Source: a virus. From it: a stretch of DNA of 21,476 nt. Location: positions 1-21,476 of the IMG/VR virus record IMGVR_UViG_3300042868_002830. One strand, written 5' to 3'. Position numbers and translations under genes: made by a program. The notes beneath the pieces were generated by a model that was given only the letters and a program-made list of their open reading frames with translations, had not been told where the DNA came from and did not search any database. Below are positions 15,059-21,249 of this stretch, piece after piece; position 1 is the stretch's first letter, and each line of letters begins with the position of its first letter.

Positions 15059-15237
15059 GATGCATCCCTCGCGTTCAAGTCCTCGGCCACGCGCTCCGCG
15101 CTGCTGCGCGTCAGGCAATCGGCCACCACGGCGGCCGACCCGTCCAGGCCAGCTAAGCGGCGCACGACAAGCCAGCGGTCGCCGGCTGGGACCACGCGGA
15201 AAAGGCGCTCGGGCGCCTGCTGCTCAGATTGGCTCAT
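15055..15237 (-). CDS. 60-residue small phage protein, unknown
   Basis: The product is 60 residues from the ATG at 15237; GGAGG is six bases upstream of this ATG and only three bases from an adjacent ATG at 15240. The sequence (LFRVVPAGDRWLVVRRLAG, then VADCLTRSSAERVAEDLNAR) suggests a beta-hairpin followed by a helix. It overlaps the end of recT by 14 bases, so it is translated from within that gene. I cannot name a family. Confidence 0.65.
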   Translation of the reverse strand: MSQSEQQAPERLFRVVPAGDRWLVVRRLAGLDGSAAVVADCLTRSSAERVAEDLNARDAS

Positions 15238-15943
15238 CATTGGCCTCCAGCGTCTCAACAGGCGCCTGCGCTGCGCGAATCTGGCCGGCACGAACCTGGG
15301 CGGCGTCCATGGCCTCCGCGCGGGCGTCACGGTCCAGCGTGCGAATTGCGGGCCGCAGATCGTTCAGAGCGTCGATGGTCTGCGCGGCGTCGATCTGGCG
15401 CATGATGGCGCCGAAGTCTGCGACCTCGACCACCGGCCCCATGTCGCGCTGGACGGGCGCCGGTGCGTGGCCGGCGTCTTCGGCCTCCTCGGGCGTGTAG
15501 GTGCCGACCACCACGCCGGGGAACACGGTGCGGATGCCCTCGGAAACGCACCGGGCGCGCAGCATCTGGCGCGGGTAGGACTTCCATGTCGGGTTTTTGG
15601 TCAGGCCGGCAGAGGTCGCCATGTCCAGCGTCCACTCGACCTCCACGCTGCCGCCTTGCGGGTGCGAGAACGTGCCGACCACGCGCCGGTCGGTGTATTC
15701 GCCCCAGCGCACGCTGCCGCCCGCCGAGTGGAAGCGGGCCAGCATGGCGTCGGCCTTGAGCGTGGGCCTGCCGTTGATGACATGGTAGTCACGAGCTGCG
15801 ATGGCCGGGTGCAAGCCCTCGGCCTGCGCGATGAGCATCAGGGCCATGGCCTGGTCTGGGGTCTTGACGCCGAACAAGCCGGACTTGGCGACGGCCACGG
15901 CCATGCGCTCGACTTGATCGACGGGAACGAGTGCAGTTGTCAT
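15224..15943 (-). CDS. recT: RecT-family single-strand annealing protein
   Basis: This 239-residue protein matches the RecT family (PF03837). It has LMLIAQAEGLHPAIAARDYH, VINGRPTLKADAMLARFHSA, GGSVRWGEYT, then NPTWKSYPRQMLRARCVSEG and RTVFPGVVVGTYTPEEAED. RecT proteins bind single-stranded DNA and anneal complementary strands, working with a partner 5'-3' exonuclease. That partner is encoded directly upstream (15968-16648), giving an exonuclease/annealase pair like lambda Exo-Beta or RecE-RecT. The C-terminal 60 residues are helical and charged and look less conserved. AGGAG lies seven bases before the ATG. The pair probably serves replication-linked recombination or genome circularisation. 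Confidence 0.88.
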   Translation of the reverse strand: MTTALVPVDQVERMAVAVAKSGLFGVKTPDQAMALMLIAQAEGLHPAIAARDYHVINGRPTLKADAMLARFHSAGGSVRWGEYTDRRVVGTFSHPQGGSVEVEWTLDMATSAGLTKNPTWKSYPRQMLRARCVSEGIRTVFPGVVVGTYTPEEAEDAGHAPAPVQRDMGPVVEVADFGAIMRQIDAAQTIDALNDLRPAIRTLDRDARAEAMDAAQVRAGQIRAAQAPVETLEANDEPI

Positions 15944-15967: not shown

Positions 15968-16648
15968 TTAAAAGGACACCTTGGCGCGCAACCGCGAAAC
16001 GATCTCGTCGGCCTCTGCGCTGAATGCGATGATCTCGCGCTCCATGTGCGCCTGGAACTCGGGGTTACCCTTGATGCGCTGGACGTAGAGCTGCAGGTCG
16101 GCGGGCATGCGGGGATCGTAGGAAATGAAGTCGCACCACTCGCGCCCTGTCAGCCACATCTGGCCCTGGATCTGCGCCTGGTGATCCTCGGGCATGCCGT
16201 CGAGCCACGTTTCGAGGTGGACCTGAGAACTCCACGGGCACTTGATCTCAATCAGCCCGAACGCGCCATCGGGGTCCGTCTCGTCCGTCACCAGTCCGTC
16301 AGGGCTCACGCCGATGGGCAGCTTCGGGTGCGCCACGAAGCCCGTCTCGGTTATCCTGGCCGAGGTGGTGAACTGGTACGCGACGCGGGCGGCGTCTTCG
16401 TTCTCGCGGCCCCAGCGCAGCGGCGCGGCGTCGGGCATCTGCACGGGCTGACCCGTCAGGCGCTCAGTCACGATCTGCCAGAGGTATGTCGTGCGGGCGG
16501 CGCTCGGGCTGCCCAGCTCGCCGGCCTTGGCCTGCGCGGCCGTGGGCTTGTTGCGGGCCAGGACGTCCTTGAAGCGGCTGGCGGTGACCTTGCCGGCGCG
16601 GGCGGCGTGCCATTCGTCGGTGCGTTGGGTGTCGGTTAGGGTGGTCAT
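15968..16648 (-). CDS. YqaJ/lambda-exonuclease family recombination nuclease
   Basis: This protein has 226 residues, the same length as lambda exonuclease. The YqaJ motifs stand in order: RAGKVTASRF (17-26), RWGRENEDAAR with E84 in WGxxxE (78-88), GVSPDGL with D117 (113-119), and LIEIKCPW with E134 and K136 (132-139). A Gln-rich AQIQGQMWLTG segment follows at 158-168. D117, E134 and K136 form the PD-(D/E)XK metal site that degrades the 5' strand of duplex DNA and leaves 3' tails for RecT. It starts by ATGA overlap with the preceding gene and is followed 24 bases later by recT. No host-nuclease inhibitor of the Gam type is evident beside it. Confidence 0.9.
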   Translation of the reverse strand: MTTLTDTQRTDEWHAARAGKVTASRFKDVLARNKPTAAQAKAGELGSPSAARTTYLWQIVTERLTGQPVQMPDAAPLRWGRENEDAARVAYQFTTSARITETGFVAHPKLPIGVSPDGLVTDETDPDGAFGLIEIKCPWSSQVHLETWLDGMPEDHQAQIQGQMWLTGREWCDFISYDPRMPADLQLYVQRIKGNPEFQAHMEREIIAFSAEADEIVSRLRAKVSF

Positions 16649-17740: not shown

Positions 17741-17983
17741 TCAGATGGCCGCTGCGGCGGCTTCGATCATGGAGCGCATAGCGGCCGACTTGTAGTTCGT
17801 CAGCGCGGCTTGCAGGTTGTTGAAACGCTTGCCCATGCCGCGCCACACTTTGTGCGATGCGTTTTGGTTGCACACTTGCACGTACCAGGGAGCGATCCAG
17901 ATGTGCGCCGACTGATTGCCGCAGGTCAATTCAATCAGGTGGCTGTCGTTGATCTTGTCGTGGCGGGTGATGATGACTTGCAT
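17741..17983 (-). CDS. First gene of the leftward operon, small unknown protein
   Basis: The product has 80 residues from the ATG at 17983, which lies six bases after GGAG. An open frame reaches back to 18106, but that would start inside the operators and upstream of the predicted promoter, so I reject it. The sequence (QVIITRHDKINDSHLIELTC, HIWIAPWYVQVCNQNASHKV, FNNLQAALTNYKSAAM) shows a beta part followed by a helix and an Ala-rich end. I recognise no family. As the first gene behind the promoter it would be the earliest leftward product. Confidence 0.65.
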   Translation of the reverse strand: MQVIITRHDKINDSHLIELTCGNQSAHIWIAPWYVQVCNQNASHKVWRGMGKRFNNLQAALTNYKSAAMRSMIEAAAAAI

Positions 17984-18017
17984 TTGCGTCTCCGGGTTGC
18001 GTGTTGCGATGGAATGA

Positions 18018-18046
18018 ATTCTGCGCTCACTGGACACCAATGTCCA
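18018..18046 (-). promoter_or_regulatory. Predicted leftward early promoter
   Basis: On the minus strand a -35 box TGGACA (18046-18041, five of six consensus bases) and a -10 box CAGAAT (18023-18018, four of six) are separated by exactly 17 bases. They lie upstream of the 80-residue gene start at 17983. The -35 is half of operator-like palindrome 1, so binding there would block the promoter. Confidence 0.55.
18031..18046. promoter_or_regulatory. Operator-like palindrome 1 (TGGACA-N4-TGTCCA)
   Basis: A perfect six-base inverted repeat with a four-base centre (CCAA). Its core GACAC-CA-ATGTC matches sites 2 and 3. It covers the -35 box and spacer of the leftward promoter. Confidence 0.6.
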
Positions 18047-18077
18047 ATGCTTTCGACAATCCCGACCAAAACGCAGG

Positions 18078-18089
18078 GACATAAATGTC
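18078..18089. promoter_or_regulatory. Operator-like palindrome 2 (GACAT-AA-ATGTC)
   Basis: A perfect five-base inverted repeat around AA. Its centre is 45 bases from site 1 and 24 bases from site 3. It shares the GACAT...ATGTC core with the other sites. Confidence 0.6.
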
Positions 18090-18101
18090 TGTTCAGCGAT
18101 A

Positions 18102-18113
18102 GACATCTATGCC
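18102..18113. promoter_or_regulatory. Operator-like palindrome 3 (GACAT-CT-ATGCC)
   Basis: The same core as site 2 with one mismatch (ATGCC for ATGTC). It stands 13 bases before the ATG of the HTH gene and abuts a possible -10 box (CAGAAT, 18113-18118), so it may serve as autoregulatory site. Confidence 0.55.
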
Positions 18114-18125
18114 AGAATCCGCCAC

Positions 18126-18308
18126 ATGATTACCCGTGAACAACTATCCAACCTGCTGCAGCAGGTTGACGCGAAAGCGGTGGCCGATGAGGCAGGCGTC
18201 AACATCAAGACCATCTACCGGCTACGGCACGGCGAGAACTCGCCACGGCTCGAGCTGGTAGAGCGCCTGGTGGCCGCGTGCCGCAAGCTGAAGGGGCGCA
18301 AGCCGTGA
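18126..18308 (+). CDS. Cro/CI-type small helix-turn-helix regulator
   Basis: A 60-residue basic protein, MITREQLSNLLQQVDAKAVA and onward. The helix-turn-helix is at about 15-38 (AKAVADEAGVNIKTIYRLRH), then GENSPRLELVERLVAACRKL, typical of the XRE/Cro family in the minimal size of Cro-like repressors. It has no dimer or cleavage domain, so it is not a full CI repressor. No Shine-Dalgarno stands before the ATG. If the CAGAAT at 18113-18118 is its -10, the transcript would begin at or next to the ATG, giving a nearly leaderless message. It likely binds the GACAT-type palindromes in the adjacent divergent region. Its stop overlaps the next GTG start (GTGA). Confidence 0.75.
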   Translation: MITREQLSNLLQQVDAKAVADEAGVNIKTIYRLRHGENSPRLELVERLVAACRKLKGRKP

Positions 18309-18511
18309 AGCAAGGCGACCGCGTGCGCCTGTCAGACGGCCAGGACGCCATGGTGCTGGAGGTCGGCGTGGCTACCCTGCGCGTGGCCCGCATCCGCCCG
18401 GATTGGCCGTTTCCCGGCCTGCCTGAATCGGTGCTGCGCGGCACGGTCAAGCGGCTGCCGTCGCGGTATCTGCGGGAGACGCCTGCAGATGTGGGGCCGG
18501 CCCGGTGGTGA
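18305..18511 (+). CDS. Small basic protein with SH3/KOW-like pattern, unknown
   Basis: The product has 68 residues from a GTG at 18305 that overlaps the regulator stop by four bases; the frame is open back to 18278 inside that gene. KQGDRVRLSDGQDAMVLEVG and TLRVARIRPDW look like short beta strands of a small SH3- or KOW-like barrel, followed by a basic tail (VKRLPSRYLRETPADVGPARW is its C-terminal part in outline). Coupling to the HTH gene suggests joint expression. It may assist regulation or bind nucleic acid, but no specific family is recognised. Confidence 0.65.
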   Translation: MKQGDRVRLSDGQDAMVLEVGVATLRVARIRPDWPFPGLPESVLRGTVKRLPSRYLRETPADVGPARW

Positions 18512-18530
18512 GCCGGCCCCGATGATTTTT
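18493..18530 (+). terminator. Possible intrinsic terminator/attenuator
   Basis: GGGGCCGGC (18493-18501) can pair perfectly with GCCGGCCCC (18512-18520) around a ten-base loop, followed by GATGATTTTT. The T run begins only five bases after the stem, so termination would be partial. The stop codon of the 68-residue gene lies in the loop. It could lower or delay expression of the helicase-methyltransferase. Confidence 0.45.
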
Positions 18531-18565: not shown

Positions 18566-20767
18566 GTGCAAAACTATGAGGACTTCGTGGCCGGCAAGCG
18601 CCGCGCCGAGGTGGGCACTGGCCACCAGCCGGGAGAACTGAACCCGCATCTGTTCGACTTCCAGCACGCCATCGTGTCATGGGCCGTACGGCGTGGCCGG
18701 GCGGCGATCTTTGCGGACACCGGACTGGGCAAGACCCTGATGCAACTGTCATGGGCTGACGAGGTGGCATCGCACACGAATGGCGCGGTGCTGATCCTGG
18801 CGCCGCTGGCCGTGTCGGAGCAGACCATCGAACAGGGCTCCACGTTTGGCATCACGGTGCGGCGGGTTCCGCACGGTGGATCACCGGATGCGCCTGGCGT
18901 ATGGATCACGAACTATGAGCGCATGGATGCCATCGACTTCGGCGGCTTGCACGGGCTTGTGCTGGACGAATCCAGCATCCTCAAGGCTCACGATGGCAAG
19001 ACGCGCACGCGCATCATTGAGTCTGCGCAGGGCGTCCCGTATCGCCTAAGCTGCACGGCCACGCCAAGCCCGAACGACTTCGAGGAGCTGGGCAACCAGT
19101 GCGAGTTCCTGGGCGTCATGACGCGCACGGAGATGCTCGCCACGTACTTCGTGAACGACACCGGAGACACCGGCACTTGGCGCCTGAAGGGATGGGGTGC
19201 CTCAAAGTTCTGGGAGTGGATGGGCACATGGGCCGTGGTGCTGCGCAACCCTTCCGACCTCGGTTTCGACGGGTCGCGGTACGTGCTGCCGGCCCCGCAA
19301 TACCTGGAGCATGTGGTTGAGACTGATCCGCTGGGCAACGACCTATTCAGCCGGCCTGCGCAGACCCTGACAGAGCGCCGTCAAGCGCAGCGCGCAAGCA
19401 TTGAGCAGCGATGCAGGGCGCTGGCCGATGTAGTCAATTCGGAATCGTCTGAGCCGTGGCTGATCTGGTGCCATTTGAACGACGAGGCCGAATTGCTGCA
19501 GAGTCTGATTCCTGGCAGTATCAACGTGCAAGGGTCAGACAGTGCCGAATACAAGGCCGAGCAGATGATGGCCTTCAGCCGTGGCACTCTGCGCGTGCTG
19601 ATCAGCAAGCCGAAGATTTGCGGCTTCGGCATGAACTGGCAGCACTGCGCACGCATGGCGTTCGTCGGGCTGGATGACTCATTCGAGAAGTTCTACCAAG
19701 CCGTGCGCAGATGCCATCGGTTCGGCCAGAAACGCAGCGTGCAGGTGCATCTGTTCACTGCCGAAAACGAAGGCCAGATTTTGCTGAACCTTAAACGCAA
19801 AGAAGAGCAGCACCACGAAATGAGCGCGAACATGATCGAGCACATGAAAGACATCATGAACCATGAGCTGTCGGGGCAGCAGAACATCGTGGACGAATAC
19901 CGCGAGGACACTCACGAAAGCGACGGGTTCACCGTGCATCTGGGTGACTGCGTGAAGTGGACCCGGCGCATGGCAGACAACAGCATTGATTACTCGGTGT
20001 TCTCGCCCCCGTTCGCTGATCTGTTTGTCTACTCAAACAGCGACCACGACATGGGCAACTGCCGCGACGATACAGAGTTCGTGGCCCAGCTGCGCTACCT
20101 GATCGGAGAGTTGTTCCGCATCATCAAGCCTGGGCGCAATGTCAGCTTCCACTGCATGAACCTGCCGACCACCAAGATGCGGCAAGGGTTCATCGGGCTG
20201 CGCGACTTCCGGGGCGACCTGATCCGCGCATTTCAGGATGCCGGCTTCATCTACCATTCAGAGGTGTGCATCTGGAAAGACCCCGTAGTGGCCATGCAGC
20301 GCACCAAGGCGCTGGGCCTGCTGCACAAGACCATCCGCGAAAATGCCAGCATGTCACGCATGGGCCTACCTGACTACGTGGTGACGATGCGCAAGCCTGG
20401 AGACGCCGAGCCGCGTGTAACGCATGGCGATGATCTGCCTGTCATGATGTGGCAGAAGTACGCCAGCCCGATCTGGAGCGACATTGATCAGGGGCGCACG
20501 CTGAACAAACTGCCGGCCCGCGACGAGAACGACGAAAAGCATATGTGCACGCTGCAACTGGACGTCATTGAGCGGTGCATCCATCTGTGGACGAATCGCG
20601 GAGACTTGATCTTCAGCCCTTTTACTGGCATTGGTTCTGAGGGCTACTGCGCAGTGAAGATGGGCCGCAGGTTTGTCGGCACTGAACTGAAGCCGCAGTA
20701 TTGGGAACTGGCCGTCGAGAACATCACCGACGCCACACGCGAGCAGCGCGGGCTTTTCGCAGCATGA
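18566..20767 (+). CDS. SNF2-like helicase fused to beta-type DNA methyltransferase
   Basis: The product has 733 residues from GTG at 18566, five bases after AAAGGAG (18554-18560); an ATG at 18542 adds eight residues without a good site. The N-terminal part (about 25-440) is a superfamily-2/SNF2-like ATPase: Walker A DTGLGKT 51-57, DESS box 134-137, SCTATP 162-167, QAVRRCHRFGQK 378-389. The C-terminal part (about 453-730) is an N6-adenine/N4-cytosine methyltransferase: catalytic SPPF 480-483 preceding the AdoMet motif FSPFTGIG 683-690, then GRRFVGTEL. That motif order is the beta class. Helicase-methylase fusions such as P1 DarB protect phage DNA from restriction; self-modification is the likely role here. 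The target sequence is unknown. It overlaps the nuclease gene by four bases. Confidence 0.87.
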   Translation: MQNYEDFVAGKRRAEVGTGHQPGELNPHLFDFQHAIVSWAVRRGRAAIFADTGLGKTLMQLSWADEVASHTNGAVLILAPLAVSEQTIEQGSTFGITVRRVPHGGSPDAPGVWITNYERMDAIDFGGLHGLVLDESSILKAHDGKTRTRIIESAQGVPYRLSCTATPSPNDFEELGNQCEFLGVMTRTEMLATYFVNDTGDTGTWRLKGWGASKFWEWMGTWAVVLRNPSDLGFDGSRYVLPAPQYLEHVVETDPLGNDLFSRPAQTLTERRQAQRASIEQRCRALADVVNSESSEPWLIWCHLNDEAELLQSLIPGSINVQGSDSAEYKAEQMMAFSRGTLRVLISKPKICGFGMNWQHCARMAFVGLDDSFEKFYQAVRRCHRFGQKRSVQVHLFTAENEGQILLNLKRKEEQHHEMSANMIEHMKDIMNHELSGQQNIVDEYREDTHESDGFTVHLGDCVKWTRRMADNSIDYSVFSPPFADLFVYSNSDHDMGNCRDDTEFVAQLRYLIGELFRIIKPGRNVSFHCMNLPTTKMRQGFIGLRDFRGDLIRAFQDAGFIYHSEVCIWKDPVVAMQRTKALGLLHKTIRENASMSRMGLPDYVVTMRKPGDAEPRVTHGDDLPVMMWQKYASPIWSDIDQGRTLNKLPARDENDEKHMCTLQLDVIERCIHLWTNRGDLIFSPFTGIGSEGYCAVKMGRRFVGTELKPQYWELAVENITDATREQRGLFAA

Positions 20768-21249
20768 CCCGAGGCCGCGAAACCCTGCGCGAGAAGATGC
20801 TGCGCAACCAGGCGACGATGGACCTCTACGCGGCCATGAACAACAAGCCCCGCGTTCTGCTGGACATGCCGCCTGAGCCTGTGAAGCGCGGGCCACGCAA
20901 ACCGTCAGGCCAGCCTACAGAGGCGCAGATTCTCAAGGCCATCATGGCGCTGCTGAAGCGCCACCCGAAGGTCGCCAGCTGCTGGCGGCAGAACTCGGGC
21001 ACGTTCCAGGAGCGCAACCGCGACGGGTCTGTGCGGTACATCCGTGCGAACACGGCTAAGGGCATGTCGGACATCATGGGCGTGCTGAAAGACGGCCGAA
21101 CGCTGGCCATCGAGGTCAAGTCCGCCACCGGCCGCATGCGTCCAGGTCAGGAGGAATTCCTCGCCACGATCCGCCACGCGGGCGGCGTGGCCGGGGTTTG
21201 CCGGTCGGTTGAGGATGCGCAGGCGTTGCTGGAGGAGAAAAGTGCATGA
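20764..21249 (+). CDS. VRR-NUC domain nuclease
   Basis: The product has 161 residues from the ATG at 20764, which overlaps the methyltransferase stop (ATGA); the longer open frame lies inside that gene. After a basic N-terminal region (about 1-50) comes the VRR-NUC core: TEAQILKAIMALLKRHP, CWRQNSGTF, KGMSDIMGVLKDGRTLAIEV and QEEFLATIRHAGGVAGVCRS. D103, E117 and K119 form the PD-(D/E)XK site. Stand-alone phage VRR-NUC proteins are thought to be structure-specific endonucleases, acting for example on Holliday junctions or replication forks. The neighbouring helicase-methyltransferase raises the alternative of a modification-linked function, which is inference. The stop overlaps the following GTG start. 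Confidence 0.85.
   Translation: MTRGRETLREKMLRNQATMDLYAAMNNKPRVLLDMPPEPVKRGPRKPSGQPTEAQILKAIMALLKRHPKVASCWRQNSGTFQERNRDGSVRYIRANTAKGMSDIMGVLKDGRTLAIEVKSATGRMRPGQEEFLATIRHAGGVAGVCRSVEDAQALLEEKSA

Follow-up and report, generated by a model that had tools for sequence, protein, structure and literature searches.

The 142 bp that separate the two divergent early gene groups of this phage probably form an early switch, in which a stand-alone Cro-type autorepressor would shut both early promoters of a phage without detectable lysogeny genes. The sequence analysed, hereafter the window, is the whole 21,476-nucleotide stretch of IMG/VR record IMGVR_UViG_3300042868_002830, in which the 142 bp (17984-18125) were read as the gap between oppositely oriented leftward and rightward phage gene groups. 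The initial annotation had reported three palindromes, a leftward promoter (TGGACA, 17 bp, CAGAAT) and a 60-residue helix-turn-helix (HTH) ORF here. All were recovered as described, the palindromes by direct reading and far above chance in shuffled sequence, the promoter by a consensus scan. The elements of the region are as follows:

18018-18046, minus strand: predicted leftward early promoter PL, with -35 TGGACA (18046-18041), 17 bp and -10 CAGAAT (18023-18018), from the consensus scan
18031-18046: putative operator O1, TGGACACCAATGTCCA, TGGACA-CCAA-TGTCCA with perfect 6-bp arms, overlapping the PL -35
18078-18089: putative operator O2, GACATAAATGTC, GACAT-AA-ATGTC with perfect 5-bp arms, centred 42.5 bp before the HTH start codon
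18102-18113: putative operator O3, GACATCTATGCC, GACAT-CT-ATGCC with one mismatch, centred 18.5 bp before the HTH start codon
18110-18118, plus strand: predicted rightward promoter PR, extended -10 TGC-CAGAAT with no recognisable -35, from sequence and alignment
18126-18308, plus strand: 60-aa HTH protein, putative repressor with an XRE/Cro fold, from Pfam, PHROGs, AlphaFold and Foldseek

A chance origin of the palindromes was ruled out by shuffling. With the half-site word and the gap left free, three related inverted-repeat sites in 142 bp, as found here, were reached by none of 1,409 dinucleotide shuffles, and two sites by 10. Matches to GACAYNNATGYC in the 21,476-bp record are confined to O1-O3, with zero elsewhere (0.2 expected). 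The core first proposed, GACAT/C-NN-ATGTC, identified the right sites, but the half-site pair is better written as (T)GGACA-N4-TGTCC(A). A one-mismatch copy of the operator, GACTTCCATGTC, occurs at 15579-15590 inside recT; it is probably a chance match, though it lies in the operon that O1 would control.

Scanning with the HTH protein gave 25 loci with 87-93% identity, one of them truncated, all on viral contigs (IMG/VR). On the point raised at the outset, whether the palindromes are lost in relatives that keep the gene order, the outcome was favourable: every relative with the window's HTH retains the three sites, in upstream regions nearly equal in length. We aligned 18 distinct haplotypes from related IMG/VR contigs over the span that starts at the PL -10 and ends at the ATG. 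Of the half-site columns (GACA/TGTC) 22 of 24 were invariant, compared with 22 of 61 for the background and 3 of 12 for the spacers, and 0 of 107 circular shifts of the half-site mask equalled this invariance. The alignment indicates that the half-sites are under selective constraint. The variants TGGACA-AGCG-TGTCCA of O1 and GGACA-AAAT-TGTCC of O2 differ in the N4 centre and the spacer, respectively, with the arms kept. The TGCC of O3 was identical in 18 of 18 versions; the apparent mismatch is invariant and is therefore taken as part of the operator, its asymmetry maintained. The single double change seen in the arms (T-A to A-T in O2, at two loci) preserves the symmetry; arm covariation is nevertheless weak and uninformative, because the arms hardly vary. 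Shuffles and alignment support the three palindromes as operators of a compact divergent control region.

The placement of the sites relative to the promoters is that of blocking elements. O1 on the PL -35, which is its right arm, and O3 on the PR -10 occupy positions that block RNA polymerase, and O2 and O3 together cover the HTH gene promoter. O3 does stand just before the HTH start, as first described, but its right arm overlaps the extended -10 of PR. In the two -10 hexamers of the region, 7 of 12 columns are invariant over the 18 haplotypes. The inverted repeats might instead be RNA hairpins (attenuators or terminators), since a fold is predicted for the O1 strand (-7.1 kcal/mol, z -3.4). 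However, no U-run follows the sites, loop and arm lengths differ among them, and neither early transcript would contain O1-O3 because the sites lie upstream of both predicted starts; this last point led us to reject the hairpin reading as extremely improbable.

The last base of the PR -10 lies 7 nt before the HTH ATG, and no Shine-Dalgarno sequence is visible. Because of this short distance, the HTH mRNA is probably leaderless. Hexamers resembling a -10 (TACAGT, TACACT and TACATT) end 6-7 nt before the ATG in the type B and type C cassettes described below and in EBPR podovirus 1, the random expectation for such a hexamer at that place being about 0.9% each (window composition; four cassettes); those of type B and EBPR podovirus 1 are not fully independent, because both regulators are P22_Cro-like. 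In these cassettes, too, a Shine-Dalgarno sequence was not seen. Leaderless cI and cro mRNAs have been mapped experimentally in phage PY54 (PMC4488713).

The HTH protein appears, from its modelled structure, to belong to the XRE/Cro-CI HTH superfamily, with an all-helical domain of the HTH_3 type. Pfam HTH_3 was matched at 21.3 bits (E 2.8e-4), just under the curated cut-off of 23, and the transcriptional regulator family phrog_18104 at E 1.4e-8. The AlphaFold model has four helices in an XRE/Cro fold (pLDDT 82.7), to which Foldseek assigned XRE-fold regulators with probability 1.0 and a best E of only 0.045. Recognition-helix residues are nearly invariant among the relatives. A sequence search against solved regulators gave no significant match, and searching the viral collection again with the HTH alignment brought up no remoter relatives. 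Being a small stand-alone HTH protein at a divergent early promoter pair, with no C-terminal protease or oligomerisation domain, it fits a Cro-type regulator. A 34% HTH match in Alcaligenes phage CASP1, also in divergent position, was set aside; no matching palindromes were seen in its intergenic region.

Repression by this protein has to be weighed against its main alternative, a dose-dependent dual role like that of restriction-modification controller (C) proteins, or of lambda CI at PRM, which we consider rather unlikely: a low dose bound at O2 would activate PR, a high dose occupying O3 as well would silence it, and O1 would repress the divergent promoter. The centres of O2 and O3 lie at -42.5 and -18.5 from the HTH start, compared with -42 and -19 for lambda OR2 and OR3 from the cI start, an agreement within half a base. 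PR has an extended -10 without a good -35, and O2 sits just upstream of the presumed PR -35 position, an activator's place that simple repression does not need. The best Foldseek folds include C.BclI, C.Kpn2I, C.AhdI and C.Esp1396I. C.Esp1396I acts through three operators, of which two form a pair at its own promoter and the other lies at the methyltransferase gene; the half-sites are GAC/GTC, with TG on the outside (PMC3758141). Leaderless C-gene transcripts are common (PMC4824078). The window likewise has one operator at another gene's promoter, a pair at the regulator's own and GAC/GTC half-sites, but the half-sites are spaced GAC-N6-GTC and there is no restriction-modification pair. No C protein was found among the sequence matches of the HTH, and C-protein membership by sequence was rejected; no restriction endonuclease pair was recognised in the window, and for the neighbouring genes Pfam and PADLOC matched no endonuclease partner. 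Moreover, activation would not be general to the locus, because a TTTACA -35 is present in cassettes of types B and C. The lambda OR2/OR3 match is one of layout and falls short of proving activation.

Regulator and sites are exchanged between relatives as one block. Loci with the same flanks but other regulators came to light when the neighbouring leftward gene and the 68-aa gene on the right served as queries, and they delimit the following element:

18020-18286: exchangeable cassette of about 270 bases with PL, O1-O3, PR and the HTH gene; right edge at 18287-18306, depending on the relative

Types B and C have unrelated sequence in the cassette, between flanks 80-95% identical to the window. 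The type B regulator (MKQKRHAGPMPAIST...) belongs to the P22_Cro family (35.9 bits against a Pfam cut-off of 30.2), and that of type C (MMKIVRHPDSKLIDQLGG...) is YdaS-like by a weak match. The type C locus L079 is 92% identical to the window up to 18019 and 93% from 18287, with nothing alignable between; two type B loci (L078 and L054) share this left edge, and their alignment resumes at 18300-18306. Cassette type switches at least 8 times on the tree of one adjacent leftward gene and at least 7 times on that of a second, counts that are approximate because the genes on the trees recombine. With a weight matrix built from the sites of type A, the window's type, the top three ranks in the window and in the related genome G002 went to the control-region sites; in G001 two of them came first and second and the third came fourth, just below an unrelated site at 174. 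The same ranking found the window's operator set absent from four type B/C genomes. A repeated-word test of the B and C cassettes gave a motif only moderately above chance, and one C sequence had none. No comparable HTH gene stood directly upstream in L164-L168, the relatives (40-45%) of the right-hand gene.

Because gene and sites are exchanged together and the site set is absent with other HTH types, the most probable ligand of O1-O3, by a wide margin, is the adjacent HTH protein, judging from these comparisons. An alternative to this predicted binding is that a host regulator or another phage regulator binds the sites, with the adjacent HTH gene unrelated to them. It is very improbable, given that the sites are kept in every relative with this HTH, are missing where the HTH type differs, and travel in one block with the gene.

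The surroundings of the switch bear on what it would control. The neighbouring genes and signals are these:

15224-15943, minus strand: predicted RecT-like annealing protein of the leftward operon (Pfam; PHROGs E 3e-33)
15968-16648, minus strand: predicted YqaJ-type exonuclease of the leftward operon (Pfam E 8e-22)
17741-17983, minus strand: opening gene of the leftward (recombination) operon, coding for 80 aa, start codon at 17983, Shine-Dalgarno GGAG at 17990-17993
18305-18511, plus strand: 68-aa gene whose GTG start overlaps the HTH stop (GTGA)
18492-18521 (to 18530), plus strand: GC-rich hairpin, then GATGATTTTT; 46-nt fold, z -3.1
18566-20767, plus strand: predicted SNF2-type helicase fused to an N6/N4 DNA methyltransferase (Pfam, PHROGs)
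20764-21249, plus strand: predicted VRR-NUC nuclease (Pfam)

On the left, the leader and ribosome-binding site before a variable first gene are the same in 39 loci (including L004-L159). The 80-aa gene of the window has 12 relatives, and the slot it fills is hypervariable, holding 14 unrelated small-protein families of 29-127 aa across the 39 loci. This position looks like a slot for early-expressed cargo, perhaps counter-defence genes.

On the right, the 68-aa gene is conserved behind all three cassette types. The hairpin just past it is decayed or absent in many relatives and was found mainly where the following gene has its own Shine-Dalgarno sequence (AAGGAGAGAGAGTG). Hairpin and T5 together form a possible attenuator before the helicase gene. 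The helicase-methyltransferase is 51-52% identical to proteins of EBPR podovirus 1 and related phages; it is one frame in the window, and in EBPR podovirus 1 a split or a frameshift divides it between two genes. It has its own strong ribosome-binding site, and no match to it was found in G001, G008 or G009, relatives that keep this control-region type. The proposal that a single small regulator governs recombination and DNA modification operons at once therefore stands for the most part with respect to the regulator and PL, whereas PR control of the helicase-methyltransferase is doubtful because of the preceding hairpin-T5, the gene's own ribosome-binding site and its absence from several relatives.

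As to lifestyle, no tyrosine or serine integrase (PF00589, PF00239) was found in the window, a 21-kb fragment, or in the related records searched. Nor did an rve transposase turn up in the related records searched, or an S24-type CI (PF00717) in the window or six related records. Three of the relatives searched carry exact terminal repeats, of 58 nt in G001 (35.9 kb), 127 nt in G006 (36.4 kb) and 32 nt in G009 (32.0 kb). Exact terminal repeats are typical of completely assembled genomes. In 84,980 prokaryote genomes the HTH protein had no relative (33 pattern matches, none of them a relative), and the exonuclease had one 29% match in a metagenome-assembled genome and no close relative; both scans used short exact peptide patterns, which distant prophages could escape. 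A virulent lifestyle is likely because integrase, transposase, S24 repressor and prophage all went undetected. The initial annotation's statement that there is no CI gene goes beyond what a 21-kb fragment alone can show; it is supported by the related records, including the three whose termini repeat exactly. The layout of a lambda-type CI/Cro bistable switch is lacking, with no CI between the control regions and no site-specific integration gene detected.

A mosaic relative, L039, sharpened the earlier contrast with lambda. Its first leftward gene is 86% identical and part of the leader is common to both, yet L039:1931-3243 reads from the first leftward gene through 126 bp to a 194-aa CI-like gene and then a divergent Cro-like gene, on the same contig as an integrase. 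That junction has the lambda order, CI separating two control regions, which the window lacks. Palindromes of the type TTGCGT-N3-ACGCAA are visible between CI and Cro in L039. The shared leftward gene and part of the leader on an integrase contig, together with the lambda-PRM-like geometry, would fit a temperate phage with the small HTH protein as its lysogenic repressor. We regard this as quite improbable: integrase, transposase and S24 repressor are undetected in the related records, three with terminal repeats, no prophage was found in the 84,980 prokaryote genomes, and the HTH protein is without an oligomerisation domain at its C terminus, its gene being read in the direction of lytic-type genes.

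For the Cro-type early switch we propose the following course. On infection, PL and PR would both fire, PL driving the recombination operon from the variable first gene to the exonuclease and RecT, and PR driving the HTH gene, the 68-aa gene and, if there is no termination, the rest of the rightward operon. The HTH protein, made from a presumably leaderless mRNA, would dimerise and bind the (T)GGACA-N4-TGTCC(A) operators. Occupancy of O1 would block the PL -35 and occupancy of O2/O3 would cover PR, so that the protein would lower both leftward transcription and its own production. We infer this binding and the direction of control, repression with possible activation from O2 at low dose. Gene and operators evolve as a unit and are jointly replaced by unrelated Cro-like cassettes.

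Parts of this arrangement have precedents. The lambda immunity region also controls divergent early promoters through three related operators; unlike lambda, the window has no CI, a single 60-aa regulator and both early promoters within 142 bp, and its third site lies 45 bp from O2, at the opposite promoter. The immB regions of PY54, N15 and phiKO2 share a small all-helical Cro and palindromic operators between divergent genes, but these phages are temperate and carry a prophage repressor gene opposite cro. EBPR podovirus 1 (JF412294) already has an annotated Cro in the equivalent position. As in the window, its small HTH gene lies upstream of helicase and methylase genes, a -10 ends seven nt ahead of the ATG, and RecT and exonuclease genes are encoded on the other strand, at the far end of that record. 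Its Cro, however, is a P22_Cro family member above the Pfam cut-off and unrelated in sequence to the window's HTH, no three-operator set is described, and the record annotates a 139-aa 'integrase' (annotation only). In lambdoid heteroimmunity, regulator and cognate operators are likewise swapped as a block between near-identical flanks; here the block is only about 270 bp with one Cro-like gene, and integrase and CI are undetected. On cassette exchange in virulent phages, the open-access texts found by searching contained nothing on point. Such a stand-alone Cro switch with cassette exchange would extend the known phage control regions.

As a probable early switch the region is minimal, needing a single 60-residue protein with three sites and two promoters, all within about 290 bp, and the locus is a source of several small orthogonal repressor-operator sets together with their natural sequence variants. 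When a repressor and its operators are exchanged jointly, heteroimmunity is indicated, and the usual explanation is lysogeny, which is seemingly lacking here; whether lytic phages compete through mutual repression thus becomes a testable question. It is possible, though we think it somewhat doubtful, that phages without lysogeny genes maintain and trade 'immunity' cassettes of about 270 bp, each a Cro-type repressor with operators and promoters of its own, under pressure of cross-repression by co-infecting or resident phages, and that the window's type is in addition a pulse generator of PRM geometry, activating and then repressing. If that were true, heteroimmunity would exist without lysogeny.
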